64,000 nt of DNA from Carallia brachiata. Taxonomy: Eukaryota; Streptophyta; Magnoliopsida; Malpighiales; Rhizophoraceae. The position numbers and the translations under genes were made by a program. Under the pieces are notes generated by a model that worked only from the letters and a program-made list of their open reading frames with translations, had not been told where the DNA came from and ran no database searches. The DNA lies in assembly GCA_021464245.1 (NCBI GenBank), contig JADCRB010000040.1, forward strand, positions 11,520,161 through 11,584,160, written 5' to 3'. This document shows, piece after piece, positions 8,635-60,367 of this stretch (the first letter of the stretch is position 1; every line of letters starts with the position of its first letter).

Positions 8635-11600
8635 TCACCATGGACCTGTCTGAGTTCGTCTCAAGCATCGTCGCTTAACTCCTTGCTGCATATTAATCAT
8701 CTCCATCACCTGTCATCAGACTAGAGATTATGTTTGAACCAATTTACCTATCAAAATTTTCATCATATTACGAATATCTACGAATGTCATAGTTCTACAT
8801 CCATGATAGACATGCATGTCACACAAAACATTCGCACTCTGCAACCTAATAGTGCATTAAGAAGTTCTTAGAGCAGGCTGCAAGCATAGGCAAATCCCAA
8901 AGTTCTAACACGGTTCCAGGAGGAAGGACATAGGCCGTATCCTGTGAAGGGTCTATGTGACACCGGTCGAGTTCCATTCGAGTCTAATTATCTAAAGGAT
9001 TCACAGGTGGCTCCCCAGTAAGTGTGCCAGAAGCAATTGATCAACAAAATTCCAAACATATTCAAGAACAACATAAGTGAATAAATAAATAAATGTTTCA
9101 TCATGTATACAGGCTGTTTGGATGTCATATGGTGGCAAATTAAAGGGGAAGCCTGCATATCTTTAGAAACTCAGTTACTTAGTGATGGGATAATATTTGA
9201 TCCTATGATTTACTTGCTTTTTACCTTCTATTCAAGCAATCTGTAAGTTTTAAAGTAAAGAATCACAGATTGTGGGTTGAACTAAATCTTATCCCAAACC
9301 CAGCCCAAATTAATGTCTCCCCAGAAAACACGTTGACCAGCTTATGGCAGGAACAGATTAGGCTGCTTAATGAATCAAAGTGCCATTAAGCCTAATGTCT
9401 TTTCGACCTTTCTCAACTATTTCTTACTGAACTACATTCACATGTGTGACTCCCAATTCCCATTCCTTCCTTTGTCCACTGGATTCATTTCTCAAATATT
9501 ATATTAATAGCCAATCACCCACCCCATCATCCCTAGCTCATCCTAAAAGCGCAAAAAATTTCACATTGAAAGGCATTCATTTTTTTGATTTTGTTCGTTA
9601 GAAGCAAAACCATTTAATCAAGCAGGACCTCTCAATGATTACCAAATGAAAGAATCCAACAATTGAACAGTCATTTGATAAGTGAATAAGAATTAATGTG
9701 ATATATTTCACTATTCCCAAAAAAAAGGGGAATTAACATGATATTTACAGTGCCCATCCACATGACATTTGTTGTAAGTAAATAACCAATAATATTAGCT
9801 AACTTTGGCAGTAGGACGAGATAGAGTTGTTGCCACAGAATACTGAAAAGTCATAGAAATTTCACCTGATTTTTCTTAATCTCCGTGATTTCTGCCTGCA
9901 GAAATTAAACCACAATCATTCACACTTCAACTCAAGATATGAAGTCAATGCGGATAATGATTTCACGAGTTTGCATCTGTATTTGTGCATGTTTATGACC
10001 ACAGCACAAAGAAAATACCTGCTTTTTCCTCAATTCTTGGTTTTGCTCTTTGAGCTTTGCAATTTCTGCTTCCAACTCCATGGTGTAAGCCTGGAAGAAG
10101 TCCCAAAGCAATTAATACACATTGATGAGCCATATGCCAACATCCTTGTTTCTCAAAATGAATTCATCTATATTTCCTCAATGATGTTTCCTTTTGGAAG
10201 GCAATTGGCTTAACGCTGTTGAACTTAATTAACATTCTTATTAATCCAGCACAAGCAATTTAACTTAAAGTTATGTGTTCCTAAAGTAATGTTCACTCAC
10301 TTACAACAAACTGGGATCCTCATAACTTCGCACGAACTTTACTTCTCAAACATTTCATGTCTCGTCATGTCAGGTCTCTATGACATTATCTTTCTGCCAC
10401 ACAAACTTCCATAATGTTTTTGCATGCAGCATGGCCATGGATGATAGAACCAATGTTAACATCTCGCAAATTCACAAAGCCAAAACAAGTCTAATTTTAT
10501 CATTTTTGCAATAATTTGTTCACATCATATTATCATCCATAGTGACACGGATTACAATCTCCTATAGTTCTGGCCCTGGGGTAGAAGATCGTGGTCCACA
10601 TCAACATAATCTTGCAATCTTATTACCATTTTTCATAGTTTTTTAAGCTGAACTGCACTAATCTTTCCAAGACAAAGGTGATTGTGTTTTCACTGATAAT
10701 AACTTGGCTTCATATATGCTCTTGCCCCACTGAGGCCAAGTTGAGTTCAACAGCATGACTAACAGAACTCTCATCCATTAAATTTTACAAGATGCACAGA
10801 AAGACAGTGCTTTCTAAGTTGGTCACACTGATGGGTGATCTTAACAAAATTACTTGATGTTTAAGTACTGTTGTTCCGGAATTGGCAAGTGTTTCGTGTA
10901 AATTGAGTCCAGATTCCACACAAGCAAGCAAATTTAATAAAAGCAAACTGGTATCTGTATGCACTAAGCAGTAGCATCATTAAGCAAGATATTCACCTGT
11001 TTGCGAGCCCGTGACCTTGCAGCTGACTCTCTGTTCTTGATCATTCTCTTCTGCCTCCTTTCGACCACCTTCTCCACAGCACCACCGGCTCTCCTGCCTC
11101 TTAAACCTCCACTAAACACATAAGGAACTGGTGACACTGAAGATGTATCCCCATTACTCTTCCCAATCCCGTCTGATGACAGCTGGCTCACCGGAGAACC
11201 AGCAGCAACCCCTAATCCAACCATTCCCATCCCTCCAGCCTGCATCAAACCACCACCGATCCCCCGATCCCCAATCCCCATCATTCCATCTCTAATTCCT
11301 GAACTGCTTTGGAATGGAAATTGTGACATATACCCTACATTAGGCTGCTTGGGATATATCTGCTGCTGCTGCGCCTGATTGGATCTAACCCCATTAACAT
11401 TCAAAGGCAAATTGGAGGTTTGCTGCAAAGGAATTTGATTGCCAGCAGTACTACTCAACACCAAACCCCCATTTGTCTGAATCCCAATCCCTAAACCAGA
11501 ATTATCCACTGAACCTGATAATTCATCAAAAAAAACACCATTAGAATTGATCTTACCCGCCAACTGAGCGTCTTCCCTGACCACTCCAGCCCTCGCCAAA

Positions 11601-12060
11601 AACTCCTCCAAAGTCATCTCTCCCAAAGTCTGCTGCCTCTGGGGCCCATTAGCTCCTCCTCCAGTCCCAGTCCCACCACCGTAGTCTCTCGATATGTCTC
11701 TCCAGACCTCATCAACCGTCTTTTGGCTCAGCGTACGCGGCAGTGTCAGCGAACCTTGGCGCTGTAGGAGACCACCCTCTTGGACCCCAACAGATGCAGC
11801 TGCCGCCCCCGTTGTCTGTTGCTGCTGCTGGTTCTCCTCTGCGCTCCATATGTTTTTGAGCAGCTCATCCATATTCATTGACCCAAAGTCCTTACCCAAT
11901 CCCCCCATGGAGCTCTGAAACTCGTCGAATGTTAACGAATATATCGACGGCTCCTTACCAACAAAAAGCTCCCCGGCGGCTGACCGCCGCCCCCACTGCT
12001 CCCTCCGGCGTTGGAGGATGGGTCGTTGGTAAAGTTCTTGAAGTTCAGGTTAGTCCCCAT
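8635..12060 (-). CDS. ABF/AREB-type bZIP transcription factor (ABA-responsive-element binding), with an N-terminal frameshift
   Basis: Group A bZIP factors of the ABF/AREB/ABI5 family bind ABRE (ACGTG) sites in the nucleus and drive ABA and drought responses after SnRK2 phosphorylation. Exons (minus): 12060-10997, 10090-10019, 9895-9866, 8709-8635, all with GT..AG borders. Visible parts: N-terminal MGTNLNFKNF; conserved C1-type SIYSLTFDEFQ; C2-type GKDFGSMNMDELLKNIW; C3-type LPRTLSQKTVDEVWRDI; a Gln-rich middle; basic region MIKNRESAARSRARKQ (N-x7-R); leucine zipper across exons 2-3; and the C-terminal RRTQTGPW phospho-motif. The exon structure is the family's. Odd: from the ATG at 12060 the frame runs only 42 codons to a TAA. 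One base is missing near 11950, in an R-Q-P-S-type codon run. Translation from the Met at 11908 would give about 362 residues lacking C1. A sequencing error or a true lesion are both possible. Confidence 0.93.
11940..11955 (-). other. Site of the one-base frameshift in the bZIP gene
   Basis: The frame that starts MGTNLNF runs well through GGGGQPPGSFLLVR and then turns to SRRYIR-stop. The other frame picks up PSIYSLTFDEFQ at exactly this point. The distance from 12060 to the in-frame Met at 11908 is 152 bases, one short of a multiple of three. The family normally has Gln between LVR and PSIYSL, so the missing base falls in that codon. Confidence 0.8.
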
Positions 12061-23745: not shown

Positions 23746-29531
<5,786 letters not shown>

Positions 29532-32369: not shown

Positions 32370-33180
32370 TTAGGATATGTATATTTTTTATTCTAAATTT
32401 TTAAATTTTTTTATATTCGAGTTTTAAATTTTTTTGACATTTTATTTGAATTTTAAATTTTTTGATTTCTTATTACATCAGATATTTAAGTTAAAAAAGT
32501 GGTCAATTCATTAATAAATAAGTTTAATTTAATAAAAATTATTTAAAAAAAGTTAAATATATAAATTAAATATTTTTTTTATCAATAAAATATGTATATT
32601 AAATATTATTTTTAATCAATAAATTTATAAATTAAATAATTAATATGCATATTTTTGATAGAAAAGACATTCCATTTATATATTTAATTTTTTTAAAATA
32701 ATTTTTCGTAAAGTTAAAATTATTTTTTAATAGATTGATCACTTTTGGTAAATAGAGAGACTGATTTGGTAAAAAGTTAAATATATGAATTAAATATAAA
32801 AAAAGTGGTCAATTCATTAATAAATAAGTTTAATTTAATAAAAATTATTTTAAAAAAGTTAAATATATGAATTAAATATTTTTTTATCAATAAAATATGC
32901 ATATTAAATATTTTTTTAATCAATAAATTTACAAATTAAATAACTAACATGTATATTTTTGATAGAAAAGACATTCTATTTATATATTTAATATTTTTTA
33001 AAATAATTTTTTGTAAAGTTAAAATTATTTTTTAATAGATTGATCACTTTTGATAAATAGAAAGACTGATTTGGTAAAAAATTAAAAGGTTTAAAACTCA
33101 AATGAAATGTTAAAAAAGTTTAAAACTCAAATGTAAAACAACTTAAAAGTTTAGACTAAAAAATATGCACATCTCTTTTA
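32370..33180. mobile_element. Long-TIR AT-rich element (copy A) with an internal tandem duplication
   Basis: The left end (TATTTTTTATTCTAAATTTT) and right end (AGTTTAGACTAAAAAATA) are inverted copies, and the adjacent stretches with TTTGAGTTTTAAA-type words also pair. A block containing GTGGTCAATTCATTAATAAA starts at 32499 and recurs at 32805, so about 306 bp are tandemly duplicated. A second copy of the family without the duplication is at 51965-52455. No coding capacity. Confidence 0.6.
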
Positions 33181-38274: not shown

Positions 38275-39151
38275 TGTAAACATTAAATAAAAAAAAAAAA
38301 GTCAATAGTCGACTTATTTCTTTCGCATGTATGTTTTAACACGGAAAAGTCGACTTATTCTTTTCCCAAGCATGCTCTCACAAGAAAAAATCGACTTATT
38401 CCTTTCGCACGCATACTTTCACACGGAAAACTCGACTTATTCCTTTCACACATATCCTTTCACACGAGAGGGGAAACCCTATAAATAGGCCCCTACCCCT
38501 CAGTTCAAAACAGATTCAGCAAATCTGTAAATAGAAAAATTCAGAGAATTTGAGAGAAAAAAAATTTTTGAAAATCTCTCAAGAAAATTTCTCCTTTCTT
38601 ACGTGCTTTTACTTTGCAGTATACTCTTCTAACTCCTTTTTGAGAGATATTTCAGGGATAAATTCCAAAAAAATTTGCTGTTTTCATTTCTAAAATTATT
38701 TTTAAATTTATAATCTCGGATCGTTCTAAATCTGAATTTATGATAATATAAATCTAAAAATATCAAATTACTACAAATCCGGTTGGAATTAAGTCTCATA
38801 CAGCTCTCAGCAAAATTCAGGCAACTCATGCGAAAACAAGTCCCTTCGAGCCTCGGTAAAATTAAGACAGATCGGCTTAGATCAAATCTCTGCGGTTCTT
38901 AAACGTAGCCCAGACGTCTACCTCAGATTTAGTTTCAGTGTACTCAGTTTAAGATAAAGATGTGAAAATTATTTCTATCAAAATCAAGCTCGTGCAGCCA
39001 TTGACGGAGTCAAAAAAAATAAGAAATACTAATCGAAGAATTTACGGATATCGACCATACGTAAATTTTCTTTTATTTTTAAATTTTTATTTGTAATTTA
39101 TTTTTATATTTTCAAGTCTAACTGTTTTAAACTTGAAATTTACCCATTACA
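38275..39151 (+). mobile_element. Solo LTR of a gypsy element related to the one at 53.4-57.7 kb
   Basis: The sequence starts TGTAAAC and ends TTACCCATTACA (TG..CA). It contains TATAAATA at 38480-38487, followed by CCCCTCAGTTCAAAA, and continues through ATTCAGCAAATCTGTAAA to the 3' end. All of this is shared with the LTRs at 53449 and 56983. The 5-base flanks are GTTAG (left) and ATTAG (right), a target duplication with one change. No internal region follows, which suggests unequal recombination between former LTRs. The upstream U3 part differs from its relatives. Confidence 0.8.
38307..38470. repeat. Four 41-bp tandem repeats in the U3 of the solo LTR
   Basis: Units start at 38307, 38348, 38389 and 38430. 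Each contains TCGACTTATT, then a TTTC-rich part and CACACGGAA-like ends. They are diverged but keep the exact 41-bp length. Such U3 repeats often act as enhancers in LTR elements; that role is inferred. Confidence 0.8.
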
Positions 39152-52665: not shown

Positions 52666-53448
52666 ACTTCAAAGTTTTTTAAATCGGGAAAAAAATTTCT
52701 TTGTTTCACAATATTAATTTTAAAATGGTAATAATATCATATATGTTGTTAAATAATTAAATTTATAAAAAAGTAAATAAATTATTAAATATTATTAAAT
52801 AAAATTGTATTAATATTTAAATATAATTATATAATTTTACTTTTTTAAATTTTGTTTGAATAAAAGTTTGAAGAGAGTAAAAGGAGGAAAAGAAATGACT
52901 AGACAAACACATATTTTATTGAACCTGTTTCCGGTTAATTGGCATGCATTAAGATTTAAATTTAAGATTTAAAATTAGATAATTCTAATACCAATTTATT
53001 TGATTCACGCTATGAAAGCGGTTGGATTGTAGATGGCGACTGATTTGGACTGTATTAGTTGAGGTTGTTTATCAACAAGACCGACAATATAGGAAAAATA
53101 TTTATGATCATACAAAAAATTATTTAGATTGTATTTAAATTATAATAATTAATATTTTTTATATAATTGAAATGATAAACTATGTAATCAAACAATATCA
53201 CTATTCTTTTGGTGTTTATTTTTTTTTAATAATTTTACAAAATATATTGATAATTATAAGATGTATATTATCTGAATAATTTTTTGTTCGATCATATAAT
53301 GGAGCTCGACAACGTAATCGGATCTAATATGACCGAAACTACGAAACATCAATTGACAATGATTTTTTGATAAAATTTAATTTTTTTTAAGTGATCAAAT
53401 TGAAACTGATGTATATGAATCACCCGTTTGCGTCTTCTCGTGGATATA

Positions 53449-53923
53449 TGTAAATGAAGAAAAAAAAAAGTCAAAATTGGCGTTTCCGATTTCAAAGTCG
53501 GCAACGCTAACCAAGGAAAAAAAATAATTGAAAGATTCCTTCTCATGTGATGTTCATATGGAAAAGGAACTCTATAAATAAGCCCCTACCCCTCAGTTCA
53601 AAATATATTCAGCAAATCTATAAATAGAAAAATTCAGAAAATTTGAGAGAAAAAGAAAATTTTGAAAATCTCTTAAGAAAATTTCTCCTTTTCTTACGTA
53701 CTTTTACTCTGCAGTATACTCTCCTAACTCCTTTTTGAGAGATATTTCAGGGGTAAGGCCAAAAAAATTTGCTGTTTCCATTTCCAAAGTTATTTTTAGA
53801 TTTATATTCTCCGATCGCCCTAAATCTGAATTTATGAGAATATAAATATGAAAATATCAAATTACTACAAATTCGGCTGGAATTAAGCCTCATACGGTCC
53901 TCAGCAAAATTCAGGCAACTCAT
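53449..53923 (+). repeat. Left LTR, 3' part deleted
   Basis: Matches the right LTR from TGTAAATGAAG through TATAAATA (53573-53580) to CAGGCAACTCAT. There it joins directly to integrase sequence, losing the last part of the LTR (about 320 bp by comparison with the right LTR). Confidence 0.85.
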
Positions 53924-53924
53924 T

Positions 53925-54869
53925 CCATCAAAAGCTTGTCAATTTCATGCGAATTACATACATCAACCACCGGAGCCACTGCATCCAACTGTCTCATCCT
54001 GGCCCTTTGAAATTTGGGGTCTTGACTTAGTGGGGCCCTTGCCAAAGTCATCCTTGGGTCACCTGTACATCCTCGCAGCAACCGATTACTTCTCAAAATG
54101 GGCTGATGTCATTCTACTTAGAGAGGTAAAGAAGGAGCATGTTGCCAATTTCATCCGGACTCAACTGATCTATCGCTATGGAGTCCCTCGATTCATCATC
54201 ACTGATAATGGTAAGCAGTTCTACAATAGCTTGATTGACAAACTCTGCGAGAAGTTCAAGTTCAAGCAGTACAAGTCATCCATGTACAATGCCCCAGCAA
54301 ATGGCTGGGCTGAAACATTCAACAAGACCTTATGCAACCTGTTGCGGAAGGTAGTCTCTAAATCCAAAAGAGATTGGCATGACAGAATTCCGGAGGCATT
54401 ATGGGCATATCGTACAACTTACCGGACTCCAACACAAGCAACGCCATACTCACTTGTCTACGGTGTCGAAGCAATACTGCCGTTGGAAACACAGATTCCA
54501 TCTCTGCGCATGGCTATTCTGGAAGGACTCACATAGGAGGAGAATGCTCGCCTACGTCTGGAAAAGTTAGAAGCCCTTGATGAAAGGAGGCTCGAAGCAC
54601 AATTGCAACTTGAGTGCTACTAAGCCCGGCTCACCAACACGTTCAACCGCAGGGTCCGCCCTCGATCTTTTCAAGTTGGAAACCTTGTTCTTGTAGTACG
54701 ACGACCCATCAACATGAAGCATCGGCCTGGTGACAAGCTTACTTCCAAATGGGACGGGCCATTCCTAGTGTAGGAGGCCTATACTCACAACGCTTACATG
54801 CTGTCAGACCAAGAAGGCGTCCAAATCGGCCCAATCAATGGTAAATTTCTGAAACAGTATTATGTGTAA
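53925..54869 (+). pseudogene. Gypsy integrase remnant with three stop codons
   Basis: One uninterrupted frame runs from the deletion junction to a terminal TAA at 54867-54869. It enters just inside the zinc-binding region. The core follows with WPFEIWGLDLVGPLP, the catalytic Asp in ATDYFSKW, Asp in ITDNGKQF and Glu in AETFNK, with 35 residues between the second and third (D35E). Then come WAYRTTYRTPT and a C-terminal SH3-like part (FQVGNLVL, SKWDGPFLV). Stops at 54534 (TAG), 54621 (TAA) and 54771 (TAG) interrupt it; there is no frameshift. The N-terminal part of the protein is deleted. It is inactive. Confidence 0.85.
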
Positions 54870-55300
54870 ATATGTTAAAAAAAATATATGTTCAAAAAAA
54901 AAAATCAAAAAAATAGAAAAAAAAATTCAAAAAAAAAATAAATAAAAAATAAAAAAAAATCAAAAATAAAAAAAAAAAGTTCGGAAGTCTCGATCTGAAA
55001 GTCCAAGCGAAAATCCAAACCCGAAAATCCAAACCCAAACACTTGAGCCCAAATCAGAAAACTCAAGCCCAAACCCAAAAATCAAAACCCAAACACTCAA
55101 CCCAAATCCAAAAGTCCAAGTCCAAAACCTAAACACTCAACCCAAATCCAAAAGTCCAAGTCCAAAACCCAAACACTCGACCCAAATCCAAAAATCCAAA
55201 TCTAGAAGCCCAAACAGTCGACCCAAATCCAATCCAAAACCCAAAACCCAAAAATTTCAAGTTCCAGACACAGTCCAGAACTTAAGTTCAAAATCCAATC
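54870..55300. repeat. A/C-rich spacer with 40-bp tandem repeats
   Basis: An A-rich stretch (54870-54980) is followed by imperfect repeats of words such as CCCAAATCCAAAAGTCCAAG. A clear 40-bp period is visible at 55091, 55131 and 55171, with a fourth, diverged unit near 55212. A similar low-complexity spacer separates pol from the extra 3' region in some large gypsy elements. Confidence 0.75.
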
Positions 55301-55344
55301 CAACTCCTGGCCCGCATGAGTATAAACTGTGAACGGCCCAAAAA

Positions 55345-55352
55345 TATAAAAG
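55345..55352 (+). promoter_or_regulatory. Candidate TATA box of the captured ORF
   Basis: TATAAAAG lies 96 bp before the ATG of the WOX-like ORF, after a GC-richer stretch. It could mean that a promoter was captured along with the gene, or chance. Confidence 0.3.
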
Positions 55353-55440
55353 CAACGGAGGGTTTGAGTCTGAAACTCAGCATCAGTTTCAACCGATCTT
55401 TACCACATACCAAGACCTTTACTCCTCTTCTACAAGAAAG

Positions 55441-56055
55441 ATGGAACCAGTTGCAGAACCTCAAGACAAGGGAGAAGAAAAGTCACCCCGCACAAGGTGG
55501 CAACCAACCATGGTACAATTGTAAATTTTGGAGGAAGTCTTCCACAACAATAGAGGTATTATTCTAAATGCACCTCAAATTTACCGACTTATCTCACGAT
55601 TGCGCCCGCTCGGGGCAATCGAAAGAAAAAATGTGTTTTATTGGTTCCAAAATCGGAGAAGCAGGAAGAAACCAGCACTGAGAACTGCTTTTTCCAAGGA
55701 ACAGTCTGTCGTTCTGATAGTAGATTCCACCGGTACAGCTTCGCCCTCAAATGAAGCAGGTACGAGTTCTTCCACTGCAATGGTCTCTCCACGGTATGTT
55801 CATCAAAGCCGTAGCCCATGGGAGCATGCATGCTGGTCCTGGTGGTCTTACGGAGTCAGCTAAGGGTTCATCCCTACTAGGTACTTAAGTCTAGGAGAAT
55901 TTTTTTTAACAGAAAGGAGTCATTCCGACGAAACTTTGTCTCTCTTTCCAGAATATTCTGGCATCAACCAGCCGGAAAGCAACGTTGACGTCAACATCAT
56001 CGACCCACCAGACGAGGTCGAGCTTGACTTGGAGTTGCGCCTCAGGCCCTGCTAG
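55441..56055 (+). pseudogene. WUSCHEL/WOX-like homeobox gene captured inside the gypsy element
   Basis: WUS-clade WOX factors maintain plant stem cells. The ATG at 55441 opens a frame whose codons about 18-82 read as a WUS-type homeodomain: TRWQPTMVQL, stop, ILEEVFHNN, QIYRLISRLRPLG, then the signature KNVFYWFQNRRSR. This has the extra residues in loop and turn typical of WOX. A donor at 55760 (AGCAG then gtacga) and an acceptor at 55912 (ttttaacag) join in phase to a second exon, 55913-56055. That exon reads DETLSLFPEYSG (WUS-box type TLxLFP) and ends ELDLELRLRPC before TAG (EAR-type LxLxL). Total 153 residues, the size of a short WOX such as WOX5. One stop (TAA, codon 28, where a Gln codon is expected) breaks the homeodomain; there is no frameshift. 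Without splicing, the frame ends before the WUS-box. Confidence 0.8.
55760..55912 (+). other. Candidate intron of the captured WOX-like gene
   Basis: GT..AG borders with a T-rich tract before the acceptor. Removing it keeps the reading frame (phase 1) and links the homeodomain exon to the WUS-box exon. Read through, the frame stops at about 55861. Confidence 0.5.
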
Positions 56056-56075
56056 GACGGCCGACAAGATAAGGT

Positions 56076-56163
56076 GCAACGACTTTGGTAGCATACGGTA
56101 ACGACTTCCGCAGCACACGGCAACGACTTCTGCAACACACGGTAACGACTTTCGTGACACGCG
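56076..56163. repeat. Four 22-bp tandem repeats
   Basis: Four units of the form G(C/T)AACGACTT-(8 variable)-ACG follow each other without a gap just after the captured gene. They are diverged only at a few positions. Confidence 0.8.
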
Positions 56164-56343
56164 TCAGCCGCTGCCTCTTTTGTCTCTTATGCAGGAAAGG
56201 GACGTGGATGACCCTACTTGATTTTGCGTACCTTTTTTTTGACTTTTCAAAAAAAAAAAATCTTTATCGTATGTATATATATATTTTGCATTCCCGAGTT
56301 GTAATACTCACCCCTCAGTTTTACTTCTTCTTCTAAAAAAAAA

Positions 56344-56592
56344 ATGGCTAGTCTCTGCACTTGTCCTAGGAAGCTCTTTGATCAAGAAGTTGGAGGCGCA
56401 CGAGCTAAGAAAAGAAGGAGTAGTCTTCCTCGAGAGATCCCTAACGTCATCGGTGTCATGGAGTTCCAACTACTCTCCTTAGTTCACATCTACCACAGAG
56501 GGATGAGACGCTGCAATCATCCTAATCTTCCTTTGGATGCGGCGATGTACGGGGAAGTTTCAACTACTCTCCTTACGTCGGAGCAGACTTGA
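56344..56592 (+). CDS. Small ORF of unknown function inside the gypsy element
   Basis: 82 codons from an ATG, with a Cys pair near the start (SLCTCPRKLF), a basic KKRRSSLPRE segment and no known domain. It is compositionally like the rest of the element's 3' region. A partly overlapping frame (56537-56836) is Ser-rich. These may be remains of an additional element ORF; I cannot assign a function. Confidence 0.25.
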   Translation: MASLCTCPRKLFDQEVGGARAKKRRSSLPREIPNVIGVMEFQLLSLVHIYHRGMRRCNHPNLPLDAAMYGEVSTTLLTSEQT

Positions 56593-56968
56593 GAATTATT
56601 ACTACAGTCAGTCTCTCTGTGTGCCGGTTTTGAAGTTCCAAAGTGTTGGACCTTCCTCTTGGGGAGGTTCAAGTTCTTTGCCTACCGGATCATCCTCACC
56701 AGAGTTTTGGAACTTCAAAGAACCTTTGTCAGCTTTTGCGAGCCATGGAAGCTCGAATTCACCTAGAGCCAAGACTTCAATTTTTATATTGGTTGGGCTG
56801 CTAACTTCCTCAAGATCATATCGGTTTCCATTGTAATCCAACAACAGTTGGGTTAGTCGGAGATAGAAGATTTCAACATTCAATGTTCGTTAGGACATCT
56901 CAAGTTTCAAACTGGACTTCAAGACTCAGTGCGGATTACGTCTGTAAAGTTCTTCCTTAGCGACCCTT

Positions 56969-56982
56969 GAAGTGGGGGCATT
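56969..56982 (+). other. Polypurine tract
   Basis: GAAGTGGGGGCATT directly precedes the TG of the right LTR, the expected plus-strand primer site. Confidence 0.7.
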
Positions 56983-57736
56983 TGTAAATGAAGAAAAAAA
57001 AAAGTCAAAATTGGCGTTGCCGATTTCAAAGTCGGCAACGCCAACCAAGGAAAAAAAATAATTAAAAGATTCTTTTCCCATGTGAAGTTCACATGGGAAT
57101 GGAACTCTATAAATAGGCCTCTGCCCCTCAGTTCAAAATATATTCAGCAAATCTATAAACAGAAAAATTCAGAGAATTTGAGAGAAAAAGAAAATTTTGA
57201 AAATCTCTCAAGAAAATTTCTCCTTTTCCATTTCCAAAGTTACGTAGGGTAAGACCCAAAAAATTTACTGTTTCCATTTCCAAAGTTATTTTTAGATTTA
57301 TATTCTCCGATCGCCATAGATCTGAATTTATGAGAATAAAAATCTGAAAATATCAAATTACTACAAATTCGGCTGGAATTAAGTCTCATACGGTCCTCAG
57401 CAAAATTCAGGTAACTCATCCGAGAACAAATCCCTTCGACCCTCGGTGAAATTAAGCCAAATCAGCTCAGATCTGGTCTCTGCGGTCCTTAACCGTAGTC
57501 TAAACGTCTAAATCAGATTCAGATTCAGTCTACCCAGTTCAAGAAAAAGTTGTGGAATTTATTTCTGTCAAGATCAAGCTCGTGCAGTCCTTAGTAGAGT
57601 TAAAAAAGGAACACTAATCGGAGGATTTACGGAGATCGACCCCACGTAAATTTTCTTTTATTTTTAAATTTTTATTTGTAATTTATTTTTGTATTTTCGA
57701 GTTTAATTATTTTAGACTCGAAATTTACCCGTTACA
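56983..57736 (+). repeat. Right LTR (complete, 754 bp)
   Basis: TG..CA borders. Two strong inverted repeats lie in U3: 13-bp arms TTGGCGTTGCCGA/TCGGCAACGCCAA at 57011-57044 with an 8-nt loop, and 12-bp arms around 57076-57100 (TTCCCATGTGAA, one base, TTCACATGGGAA). TATAAATA follows at 57108-57115, then the R/U5-like part shared with the solo LTR at 38275. Confidence 0.88.
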
Positions 57737-60367
57737 ATATAATCCATGTATTATGAGCGCAAGACCGAGACGCATATCAAGTTATCAATTGTCAGAGCTT
57801 GCTCAGAGAAAGGAGTTCGGAAGAATTACCACTCTGCAATAGGTGCCTTTTTTCAATCATCCAATAAGTGAGTATTGAGCATGAAAATTTAGCGGAATAT
57901 TTTTTTTTTGAATTTTATTACATAAATATAAAAAATTAGATATAAAGTAATAATGCAGACACATTATTTAAATTTGAATTGTTTTCTATATTAGACCACT
58001 ATTCAATTAATAGTTAAAATATAAATAATTGATTCATGTTATTATTCTATATCTAATTTTTGTATCTATATATTTTTGTCCCTTTGCTTTTTGGTAGGAT
58101 TGTGAACAAGATAACACATTTATTAAAAGTTTAGTGACTCATTTGGATAAGAATTCACCTAGAACTTAGACTCTATTTAGTTTAACTATTAATTATTGTT
58201 GTTGCTTTATGTGATTGCTGTTATTAATTGTAGATTATTAATACTGATGACGAAAATAAAATTATAGCATTTAGTTAGATTAATATTTGATTGTTGTTGT
58301 TTAAATAATAAAATGATCATTTCATACACTATATTTTCATTTTATTACAATTTATATTTATTTTCTATTAGTTTTATCAAAGATTTTATTATGATTTGAG
58401 AATATTATTGTAATGAGAATATATTACTGTAATGAAGATATATATGAAAAAATCCTTAAATCATAATAATATCTTTGACAAGTTATTCGGTATGATTCTG
58501 CATGTTACAAAAAAAAATTCAAACTTGATTGGTCAACTTGCATTTGCATTCTAGTAACACAAGAAGTAAAATATCTTAATTTATTAACGAGTATAAAATA
58601 TAGATAAATTAAGTAGAATAGATGGGAGGTGGAGGAAAAAATGAAGACAATCGGTGGCGGAGCATGAAAATAAGTGGAGGATATGGTAGAGAATTCTGTA
58701 GTGGAGAGGGGTCTCAAGTGCGATCGTATAAGCTTGAAAGGGAAAAATAATCTGAACGGGAAAAATGAGCTAGGGTAATATGAAAGTATTTCAGTTTTGA
58801 AAATATTTATTAGTAGCTGAGTAATCAAAAAGTAAGTCCAAGCAACTTTTTAGGATTGGTAGATAATTGAGTTGCTTTTTAACAAAAGGCAACCCTTAAA
58901 AAATATAAATCAAATATTCTTCTCCTTAATTTAAAAAAATGTAAATACACTCTTTAAAAGTTAAACCAAGCATCCTTTTAATATCAAAATTATTTATAAG
59001 TTCTTGAGGAAACATTTCAATAGTTAGAATTTAAATTTTTATTTTAGAAGCTTTAGGTTGTGATCATGAGAAGGAGATACGAGAGTTATAAATTAAGAGA
59101 ATCATTTTTATTATGTAGTTTATGATTCAATAAATTTACAAATATACAATAAAAAGTCTTTTGTTAAATGAGCCAAATATGTGTAAAACCATAATTGATT
59201 CCCTTAATTTCATGAACGGATTGTTTAGAAATTATTTAAAGTTTATTATATAATATCTTAAAAAAAGCTTGTTTAGAATTTTTTTGAGGGACTTGTTTAG
59301 TATATTACTGAAATATATTTTATAAGTTTATTCAAATTATAGAAACATCCTCTTTTTATGACAATAAGAGGATATTTGGTATATTGCATACCTCTAACTT
59401 TTCTTTTTGATGATTGAAGGGTTAAAAACTGAATAAAAAAAAGACCAAAAAAGAAAGCAATTAAAGCAAATTAATAAGGTAAATAAATAATTAAAGATGA
59501 TTATAAACAACTTCAAGTATCTTTATTGAACTTCTTTATTTTAATTATTTATTACAATGTAATGTCGAAGAAGCCAATGGAGGATCAACTTTAACAAAAA
59601 TATCCTTTTAAGACCCCACAAATCTGAATCTTTGTATACCGAGACATTCTTTTATATTTTAAACACTTACTTTTAAGTACTTAGTTTCTTTAAATAAATA
59701 TTTTTTTTATCAATTTAATTCTATTTATAACAATAAATTTTATACAATTTTAATTAATTCTATTGATACTGTGAATTTAAATGAGCTCTTAATTAAATGA
59801 TCAAGACTCGACTCAAAAAGTATAAGCTGGACTTGTTGGTAAAAAAAAAAAAAAATTTTAACATGACAAAATTCAACTTAAGTCGATATGTTTAAAGTTT
59901 AAACTCCTATTGTAGGCAATATCAAAATGTGTCATCAAAAAGTAATAATAGAGGGCATTAATTGGGATGCAAAATAGTGCGGCGCGGTCCATTGTATTTG
60001 AAAGAAAGTACACTGCACCTATTGAAATGTTGGCAAACATTATTACATTCTCTACAAAATTATTACATTTTTTAGCTATCGTACTCATAGTTTCACAACA
60101 ACCATAAAAAAAAAAAAAACCCCAAAAAAAAAAATGAATATCTCTAACAAAATGTATTGTACTTCATAAAAACTGTAATATCTCTTTTTCAGCTGCAATA
60201 AGTACGTCTTTTTTGTAAAAATGAAAACGTAATACATAACCAATAAAATTTAATGCAATTTTTAAAAAATATATTGTAGAAAAATATATTATGTTCTTTA
60301 AAAAATAAATTATTTTTGTTAAGTGCTTAAAAAAAATGCAGTACTCGCGCTTTACTGGCCGGCCATA

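Follow-up and report, generated by a model that had tools for sequence, protein, structure and literature searches.

The occurrence of a WUSCHEL (WUS)-type homeobox gene inside an LTR retrotransposon of Carallia brachiata raises the question of whether the element has captured a cellular gene and what it may gain from the protein. The locus lies in a stretch of 64,000 nucleotides (the window). An earlier note on this DNA had proposed the capture of a cellular gene. That reading is upheld by sister copies that carry the open reading frame (ORF), by best matches to WOX proteins of the WUS clade and by purifying selection. It is highly probable that a Tat-type retrotransposon captured a WUS-clade gene and keeps a selected protein. 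The family carries an uninterrupted, selected version of WUSCHEL in well over a hundred copies.

Within the window the LTR element occupies positions 53449-57736, with its parts on the forward strand, and has the same 5-bp target duplication, ATATA, on both flanks (53444-53448 and 57737-57741). The 5' LTR (53449-53923), recognized as a repeat of the right LTR, begins with TG and is truncated on its 3' side. The 3' LTR (56983-57736, 754 bp) has the form TG...CA and is adjoined by a polypurine tract, AAGTGGGGGCA (56970-56980), which is the same in the sister copies L018 and L028. The K2P distance of the LTR pair is 0.078 over 436 aligned bases. The firm boundaries claimed in the earlier note are borne out by the TG at 53449, the CA at 57736, the ATATA duplication and the polypurine tract before the right LTR. 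The 5' LTR ends at 53923 and runs into an integrase fragment, so that the primer-binding site, gag, reverse transcriptase (RT) and RNase H are missing between the two; the N-terminus of the integrase was not found there either. The fragment (53925-54869) contains the rve core and the C-terminus, as identified by Pfam and translation (Pfam rve on 53925-54530, 1e-10), and has in-frame stops. The element in the window is a decayed copy, in which the 5' LTR is fused to an integrase fragment and two stops interrupt the WOX frame.

Several other features of the window were recorded. The DNA between the integrase fragment and the WOX ORF (54870-55332) is A-rich at first and then contains a degenerate CCAAACCCAAATCC-type repeat, and four short stretches (L049-L052) contain similar sequence of variable length. 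A short ORF 3' of the WOX ORF (56344-56592) begins MASL(C/Y)TC(P/L)RK(L/F)FDQEVGGARAKKRRSS. It is common to the young copies L026 and L028, and the L028 version (L028:1577-1990, minus strand) has no Pfam match. At 38275-39151 there is a lone LTR of a related subfamily, which shares 80% of 696 bases with the right LTR. Its flanks read GTTAG and ATTAG (4 of 5 bases match), and its first approximately 180 bases are unlike the LTR of the window element. A 290-bp unit is duplicated in tandem at 32493-33086 (95% identical). The window also holds what we take, by translation, to be two cellular genes, a bZIP gene of the ABI5 type (10964-12049, minus strand) and an AGC/NDR-type kinase gene (25369-26848, plus strand).

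The host assembly (337.5 Mb, 164 contigs) was searched for sister copies. The window ORF gave at least 150 matches (the best 150 scored of 2,268 first-look candidates), nearly all of which span residues 1 to at least 201, and about 100 of the 150 listed are without a stop as counted by eye. With a young copy as the query, at least 23 of the best 150 of 2,309 candidates are 100% identical over residues 1-206 and have no stops. At least 23 places in the genome thus encode one identical, unchanged 206-residue protein, and stop-free copies, which the earlier note had suggested looking for, are numerous. A query from a second subfamily (best 150 of 2,301 candidates) returned at least 12 matches that are identical at the top score.

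The ORF recurs across these elements. Twenty copies were fetched with 9-10 kb of sequence; all 20 have an LTR downstream and 19 have at least part of an integrase upstream, L015 being the exception. In 21 further stretches the integrase lies upstream in 20 and an LTR downstream in 15, the stretches being short. Because the first copies had been chosen by their ORF, a search with the integrase was added, which gave at least 150 matches (best 150 scored of 2,500 candidates). Four copies were fetched that had been picked by integrase alone and were then unpaired with the ORF lists, and the ORF is present in all four. In one of them, L052, the match is uninterrupted over its full length; in the three others the frame is broken or the match is split. 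A listed ORF lies 620-1425 bp downstream on the same strand of 68 of the 150 integrase matches (pairs identified by eye, distances checked), and together with three of the four fetched copies this gives at least 71 of 150 that carry the ORF. The homeodomain block is therefore present in the sister elements. The alternative that it is a nested insertion, which the earlier note had named as contrary to capture, was rejected, since no bracketing repeats of at least 40 bases surround the block and it occupies the same place in 19-20 of the 20 sister copies. Its position, copy number and lack of introns show the captured ORF to be an additional gene, stably maintained after pol and ahead of the 3' LTR. 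No relatives were found in viral contigs and prokaryote genome contigs, where plant elements are not expected, and this result has little weight.

The element family is classified by its domain order as Ty3/gypsy of the Tat type (RT-RH-aRH-INT). The copy L028 encodes in a single long ORF, in this order, RT, RNase H, a second RNase H (RVT_3), the integrase H2C2 zinc domain and the rve core. The order RT-RH-aRH is also found in L018, and the second RNase H is thus seen in two copies. The same arrangement typifies Ogre and Retand, Tat clades of angiosperms (PMC6317226). A gag domain was identified by Pfam in L016. A primer-binding-site-like sequence, TGGCACGCTCGGTGGGAC, lies 3' of five 5' LTRs, a polypurine tract is present in L018 and L028, and LTR pairs are present; the target duplication was checked in the window copy only. 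Two antisense ORFs (one near the 5' end) were examined for the antisense TRP28 and have no Pfam match. Neither TRP28 nor a plant mobile domain (PMD) was seen in the subset of ORFs that was scanned. In L026 and L028, whose LTR pairs are the most similar, the ORFs listed ahead of RT are all short, and the one examined in L028 is without a Pfam match. The older L016 has a gag domain, and L026 and L028 may represent a non-autonomous subfamily.

The captured ORF runs from the ATG at 55441 to the end of the TAG at 56055 in a single frame of 204 codons plus the stop. In the window copy, two in-frame TAA stops interrupt it, at 55522-55524 (codon 28) and 55861-55863 (codon 141); the frame was defined from the window and the sister copies. 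The earlier note had described a WUS-type homeobox gene within the LTR retrotransposon, and every motif that it named was found at its position. The homeodomain (55489-55686, codons 17-82, one stop in the window copy) is supported by Pfam, by sequence matches to solved structures and by the predicted fold of a sister copy. The part after the first stop matches Pfam PF00046 above the cut-off (E 6.3e-8). By sequence, the closest solved structures are those of WUSCHEL (6.7e-10, gapless) and STENOFOLIA (9.4e-8), in agreement with the claim of a WOX homeodomain. Sister copies give stronger values, with 2.7e-12 for Pfam (L028) and 5.2e-18 for the WUSCHEL structure (L013). The fold predicted for a sister copy has three helices with 49 residues at pLDDT of at least 90, while the remaining chain is of low confidence (mean pLDDT 60). 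Its best match is the WUS homeodomain on TGAA DNA (6ryd; E 3.4e-5, TM 0.94 of the target). In WUS the base-reading residues are R38, N90 and R94 (PMC7203112). The equivalents of N90 and R94 are kept together in 38 of 42 fetched ORFs, and the TRW context of R38 in all 42.

The C-terminal part has the motifs of a co-repressor-recruiting WOX protein in the order that had been noted. The WUS-box TLSLFP is at 55933-55950 and the C-terminal EAR-type motif LDLELRL is at 56023-56043. Across the 42 ORFs the WUS-box reads TLxLFP in 36 and TLPLFP in 30, and L[DGN]LEL lies close to the C-terminus in 41. An EAR-type motif at the C-terminus is of the type found in WUS and WOX5. When the C-terminal codons of L013 were shuffled 100,000 times, a WUS-box arose twice, LxLELxL near the end once and both together never; this test is rough, and the last residues of L013 itself are altered. 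By sequence, the ORF encodes a WUS-clade WOX protein with homeodomain, WUS-box and C-terminal EAR-type motif. The protein is a compact 'mini-WUS' of approximately 203 residues from which most of the middle of WUS is missing. A TATAAAAG box (55345-55352) lies 88 bases before the ATG, where it may act as a promoter. It is exact in 17 of 20 sister copies and altered in L013, L018 and L020, which hints at a transcript of its own.

The earlier note had read the gene as two phase-matched exons with about 153 codons. This part of the description does not stand, as both 'exons' belong to the same frame, which in the window copy is broken by the two TAA. The proposed intron at about 55760-55914 has some appeal, since splicing from the window donor CAG/GTACGAG to a poly-T acceptor would keep the frame and remove one stop, and 10 of the 15 stops in the 42 ORFs fall within this stretch. 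However, GTAC occurs at the donor in one ORF, that of the window; the other ORFs have GTCC (37), GTCT (2) or, lacking GT altogether, GCCC (2), so that 39 of 42 read GTCC or GTCT. The frame reads through the proposed intron in 41 of 41 fetched sister ORFs, which were chosen as full-length matches, and dN/dS there is 0.60-0.77. With the window left out, stops per near-stop site number 9/399 in this stretch compared with 4/453 in the homeodomain, which is no significant excess (p 0.16). A two-exon gene is extremely improbable. The single frame and a donor confined to the window copy indicate a protein of about 204 codons, not 153.

Two versions of the homeodomain are in circulation. A second young subfamily, represented by L052 (L052:438-1043), has NVYFWFQNRRHRETVALR where the first has NVFYWFQNRRSRKKPALR, and a search with it gave 90 of the best 150 rows at 91% or more. 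Both subfamilies keep the equivalents of the asparagine and arginine that read bases in WUS. The divergence is unevenly spread. L052 and three copies of the first subfamily differ at 16-23% of bases in windows starting 88-223 nt after the ATG, whereas the figure is 1-7% upstream of the ATG and 1-2% for windows at 493-538 nt. In two of the three comparisons the difference rises again to 7-10% near 583-628 nt. Synonymous and nonsynonymous sites are both affected: over codons 37-82, L052 compared with seven copies has an elevated dS of 0.36-0.56, with dN/dS of 0.39-0.59; a single pair gives dN/dS of 0.50 over codons 17-105 (p 0.04). The simplest reading of this pattern is that element lineages recombined, as by template switching, and an older homeodomain was joined to a common backbone.

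The homeodomain evolves under purifying selection, as the earlier note had suggested testing. Across the 42 ORFs its dN/dS is 0.20 (861 pairs), with 0.37 over the 21 nearest disjoint pairs (Fisher 1.6e-7) and 0.18 over the 21 farthest (6.8e-37); because the copies were drawn from matches ordered by protein similarity, dN is biased downward. For the whole ORF the values are 0.57 for the nearest and 0.47 for the farthest pairs. The middle of the ORF, which holds the 10 stops mentioned above, is weakly constrained (0.60, p 0.0097; 0.77, p 0.071). In ten copies with a full integrase match the pooled dN/dS is 0.57 for the WOX ORF and 0.49 for the integrase, which puts the constraint on the extra gene close to that on a gene the element requires. 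Integrase and ORF distances show no significant correlation in these ten copies (Mantel r 0.19, p 0.16). The carriers have inserted recently. Among six LTR pairs the youngest are those of L028 (K2P 0.0064) and L026 (0.0081), a difference of 0.6-0.8%, and three others have 0.022, 0.027 and 0.094. Plant substitution rates are commonly placed at 7e-9 to 1.3e-8 per site and year. At these assumed rates the two youngest insertions are 0.25-0.6 million years old.

These data bear on whether the ORF is a passenger, a piece of host sequence that serves neither element nor host. Plant LTR elements are documented to capture host genes (PMC7264820), and the window copy itself is broken. This reading is contradicted by the homeodomain dN/dS of 0.18-0.37. 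Furthermore, 31 of the 42 ORFs, fetched from high-scoring rows, are free of stops, and at least 23 intact proteins are identical. The protein shares 49-61% identity with cellular WOX proteins (120 listed of 214), a distance at which a neutral ORF would not have stayed open; among simulated neutral ORFs, 1 of 500 stayed open at 20% divergence and 0 of 500 at 30%. A mere passenger is very improbable. The purifying selection together with the recent insertion of the carriers indicates, on statistical grounds, that the element or its carriers gain from the protein.

The donor was a WUS-clade gene, as judged from the homeodomain and motifs. Searches with the decayed window copy returned 2 distant WOX proteins and then none. 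With an intact sister the search gave 214 proteins, and all of the 120 listed have the homeodomain by Pfam at 49-61% identity. The best matches in sequence and structure are WOX or WUS-clade proteins, as the earlier note had anticipated. There was no close relative among the 120 listed of the 214 (the search spans 0.55-1.75 times the query length). With a WUS query, nine WUS-clade homeodomain exons of cellular genes were found in the host genome, the other matches being element copies as far as identity and place distinguish the two kinds. By their signatures, the nine are presumably exons of two WUS, two WOX1, two WOX4 and one each of WOX2, WOX3 and WOX5. A tenth place that was fetched, C36, is an element copy. 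Each of the two host WUS genes contains CRQSSTRWTPTTDQI..., with the WUS-box (ETLPLFP) 1,146 and 1,039 bases 3' of the end of NVFYWFQN and behind stops. One of them has LELSLNSYTG near its end. The element ORF is uninterrupted, whereas host WUS is interrupted, and capture therefore probably went by way of spliced RNA. On this view the transcript of a WUS-clade gene, most likely that of WUS, entered a Tat-type Ty3/gypsy element after its introns had been removed.

WUS itself is the best fit and probably the donor, though trees do not place the element clade there. For each of the four element homeodomains compared, the three highest alignment scores belong to WUS sequences. In the case of L013 they are 182 with Arabidopsis WUS and 180 and 178 with the host WUS genes, followed by 163 with WOX3. 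An extra homeodomain residue is described as unique to WUS (PMC7203112). The corresponding span is 45 in WUS and in all 40 measurable ORFs of the 42, compared with 44 in 119 of 122 database WOX proteins and 45 in 3 of 122. The ETLPLFP WUS-box is common to the element ORF and host WUS, and a C-terminal LxLxL is found in both. WOX3/PRS or another WUS-clade gene remains a minority candidate, somewhat unlikely in view of the extra residue, the scores and these C-terminal motifs. In its favour, the named top matches of the homeodomain-only search are mostly WOX3, although shared words and a length of 0.55-1.75 times that of the query are preferred by this search. Of the host genes, WOX3 is also the closest to L013 and L027 in raw identity (35/65, compared with 33/67 for host WUS), and the LEE and PNASQI strings of the element match WOX3. 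In a homeodomain tree of 108 sequences the element clade lies near WOX3 with support of at most 26 and a very long branch. In a tree with the host genes, the cellular WUS-clade genes group together to the exclusion of the element clade (66% support). Thus the WOX trees, which the earlier note had proposed, did not recover a position inside WUS, and the branch is long.

What the protein does may be considered at several levels. Mini-WUS would be made from its own TATA promoter or from the element RNA. It would enter the nucleus, read WUS-type sites through its conserved base-contacting residues and recruit TOPLESS-type co-repressors. In the stem cells of shoot and flower it could mimic or compete with host WUS, such that cells are held in the lineage that leads to the germ line. 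Alternatively it could damp host genes that act against the element. Such a host-directed mode, by analogy with retroviruses that carry altered host transcription factors, is a substantial possibility, held tentatively and at somewhat under even chances. A bolder version is that the element lineage lives by a stem-cell regulator of its own. Mini-WUS in the meristem or in germ-line precursors would keep or enlarge the inheriting lineage, and subfamilies would swap homeodomain or specificity cassettes by template switching. We regard this as speculative and rather doubtful.

The protein could instead act on the element, binding the LTR or the internal TATA promoter and tuning or silencing transcription in the manner of retroviral regulatory accessory proteins. 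Its ORF occupies the region from pol to the 3' LTR in which the extra ORFs of Tat elements lie, the DNA-contact residues are kept, and a regulatory role has been proposed for the antisense TRP28 of Retand elements (PMC11963269). On the other hand, four LTRs and two upstream regions show no excess of WUS-type sites (TGAA, TGAA pairs, TAAT, TTAATGG, CACGTG), and autoregulation through known WUS sites in the LTR was rejected on this ground. For self-regulation in general the objection is weak because the homeodomain, changed outside its base-contacting residues, may prefer other sites; we consider this mode unlikely. The chromodomains of chromoviruses tether integration, and a DNA-binding domain encoded beside the integrase could likewise tether the pre-integration complex and steer insertions to sites bound by WOX proteins. 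The homeodomain is found in a separate ORF together with co-repressor motifs, which would be superfluous for tethering, and this role is very unlikely. If the protein is active, its many mobile copies could affect meristem size, regeneration and somatic embryogenesis in the host plant. They could also disturb the annotation of WOX genes and gene editing or RNAi directed against them.

Extra ORFs are common in plant LTR elements and mostly have no known function. Few plant regulators are understood as well as WUS, for which DNA complexes have been solved, targets are known and overexpression gives simple phenotypes. Because its cellular counterpart is so well understood, the gain that a retrotransposon draws from an extra gene is directly testable here. 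Like WUSCHEL, the element protein has the extra homeodomain residue, equivalents of R38, N90 and R94, a WUS-box and a C-terminal EAR-type motif in the same order. Unlike WUSCHEL, it is borne by a retrotransposon, has approximately 203 residues, no introns and little of the central region, and about half of its homeodomain residues are identical to those of the three WUS sequences compared.

The element itself resembles the Tat elements Ogre and Retand in its RT-RH-aRH-INT order and in an extra ORF between pol and the 3' LTR (PMC6317226). The domains named for such ORFs are PMD in 57% of Ogre and Transposase_28 in 23% of Retand elements (PMC6317226). For recently active Retand elements of 617 assemblies, a survey reports no sense ORF with a known domain between pol and the 3' LTR (PMC11963269), whereas the sense ORF described here encodes a homeodomain. 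The published ORF thresholds, 250 codons (PMC6317226) and 600 bp (PMC11963269), may have hidden such an ORF. Orchid Gypsy elements have an ORF for a 2-ODD (m6A demethylase), elements of Citrus a YgdH/LONELY GUY domain and those of Aegilops a B3 domain; B3 is a transcription-factor domain and LOG acts in cytokinin control (PMC9289625). These families also have a cellular-type extra domain fixed in an LTR family, in contrast to the nearly complete transcription factor with its co-repressor motifs kept here. In the account of extra domains in 121 angiosperm genomes, section 12 names no homeobox, and homeobox, homeodomain, WUSCHEL and WOX have 0 occurrences in the main text (PMC9289625). No description of a homeobox-bearing plant LTR family was found in the text of openly licensed papers. 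The LONELY GUY-type (cytokinin) elements of Citrus (PMC9289625) and the WUS-type elements described here would place two genes of the stem-cell pathway in plant Gypsy elements, possibly by coincidence.

A further parallel is offered by v-myb and v-erbA, host transcription factors transduced by retroviruses. As in those retroviruses, a shortened, diverged and intronless host transcription factor is carried by a retroelement. The present case, known from sequence alone, differs in that the gene is fixed in an endogenous family and is under purifying selection. If mini-WUS does keep cells in the inheriting lineage, the element would be the plant counterpart of an oncogene-carrying retrovirus, one that has become permanent in the genome.
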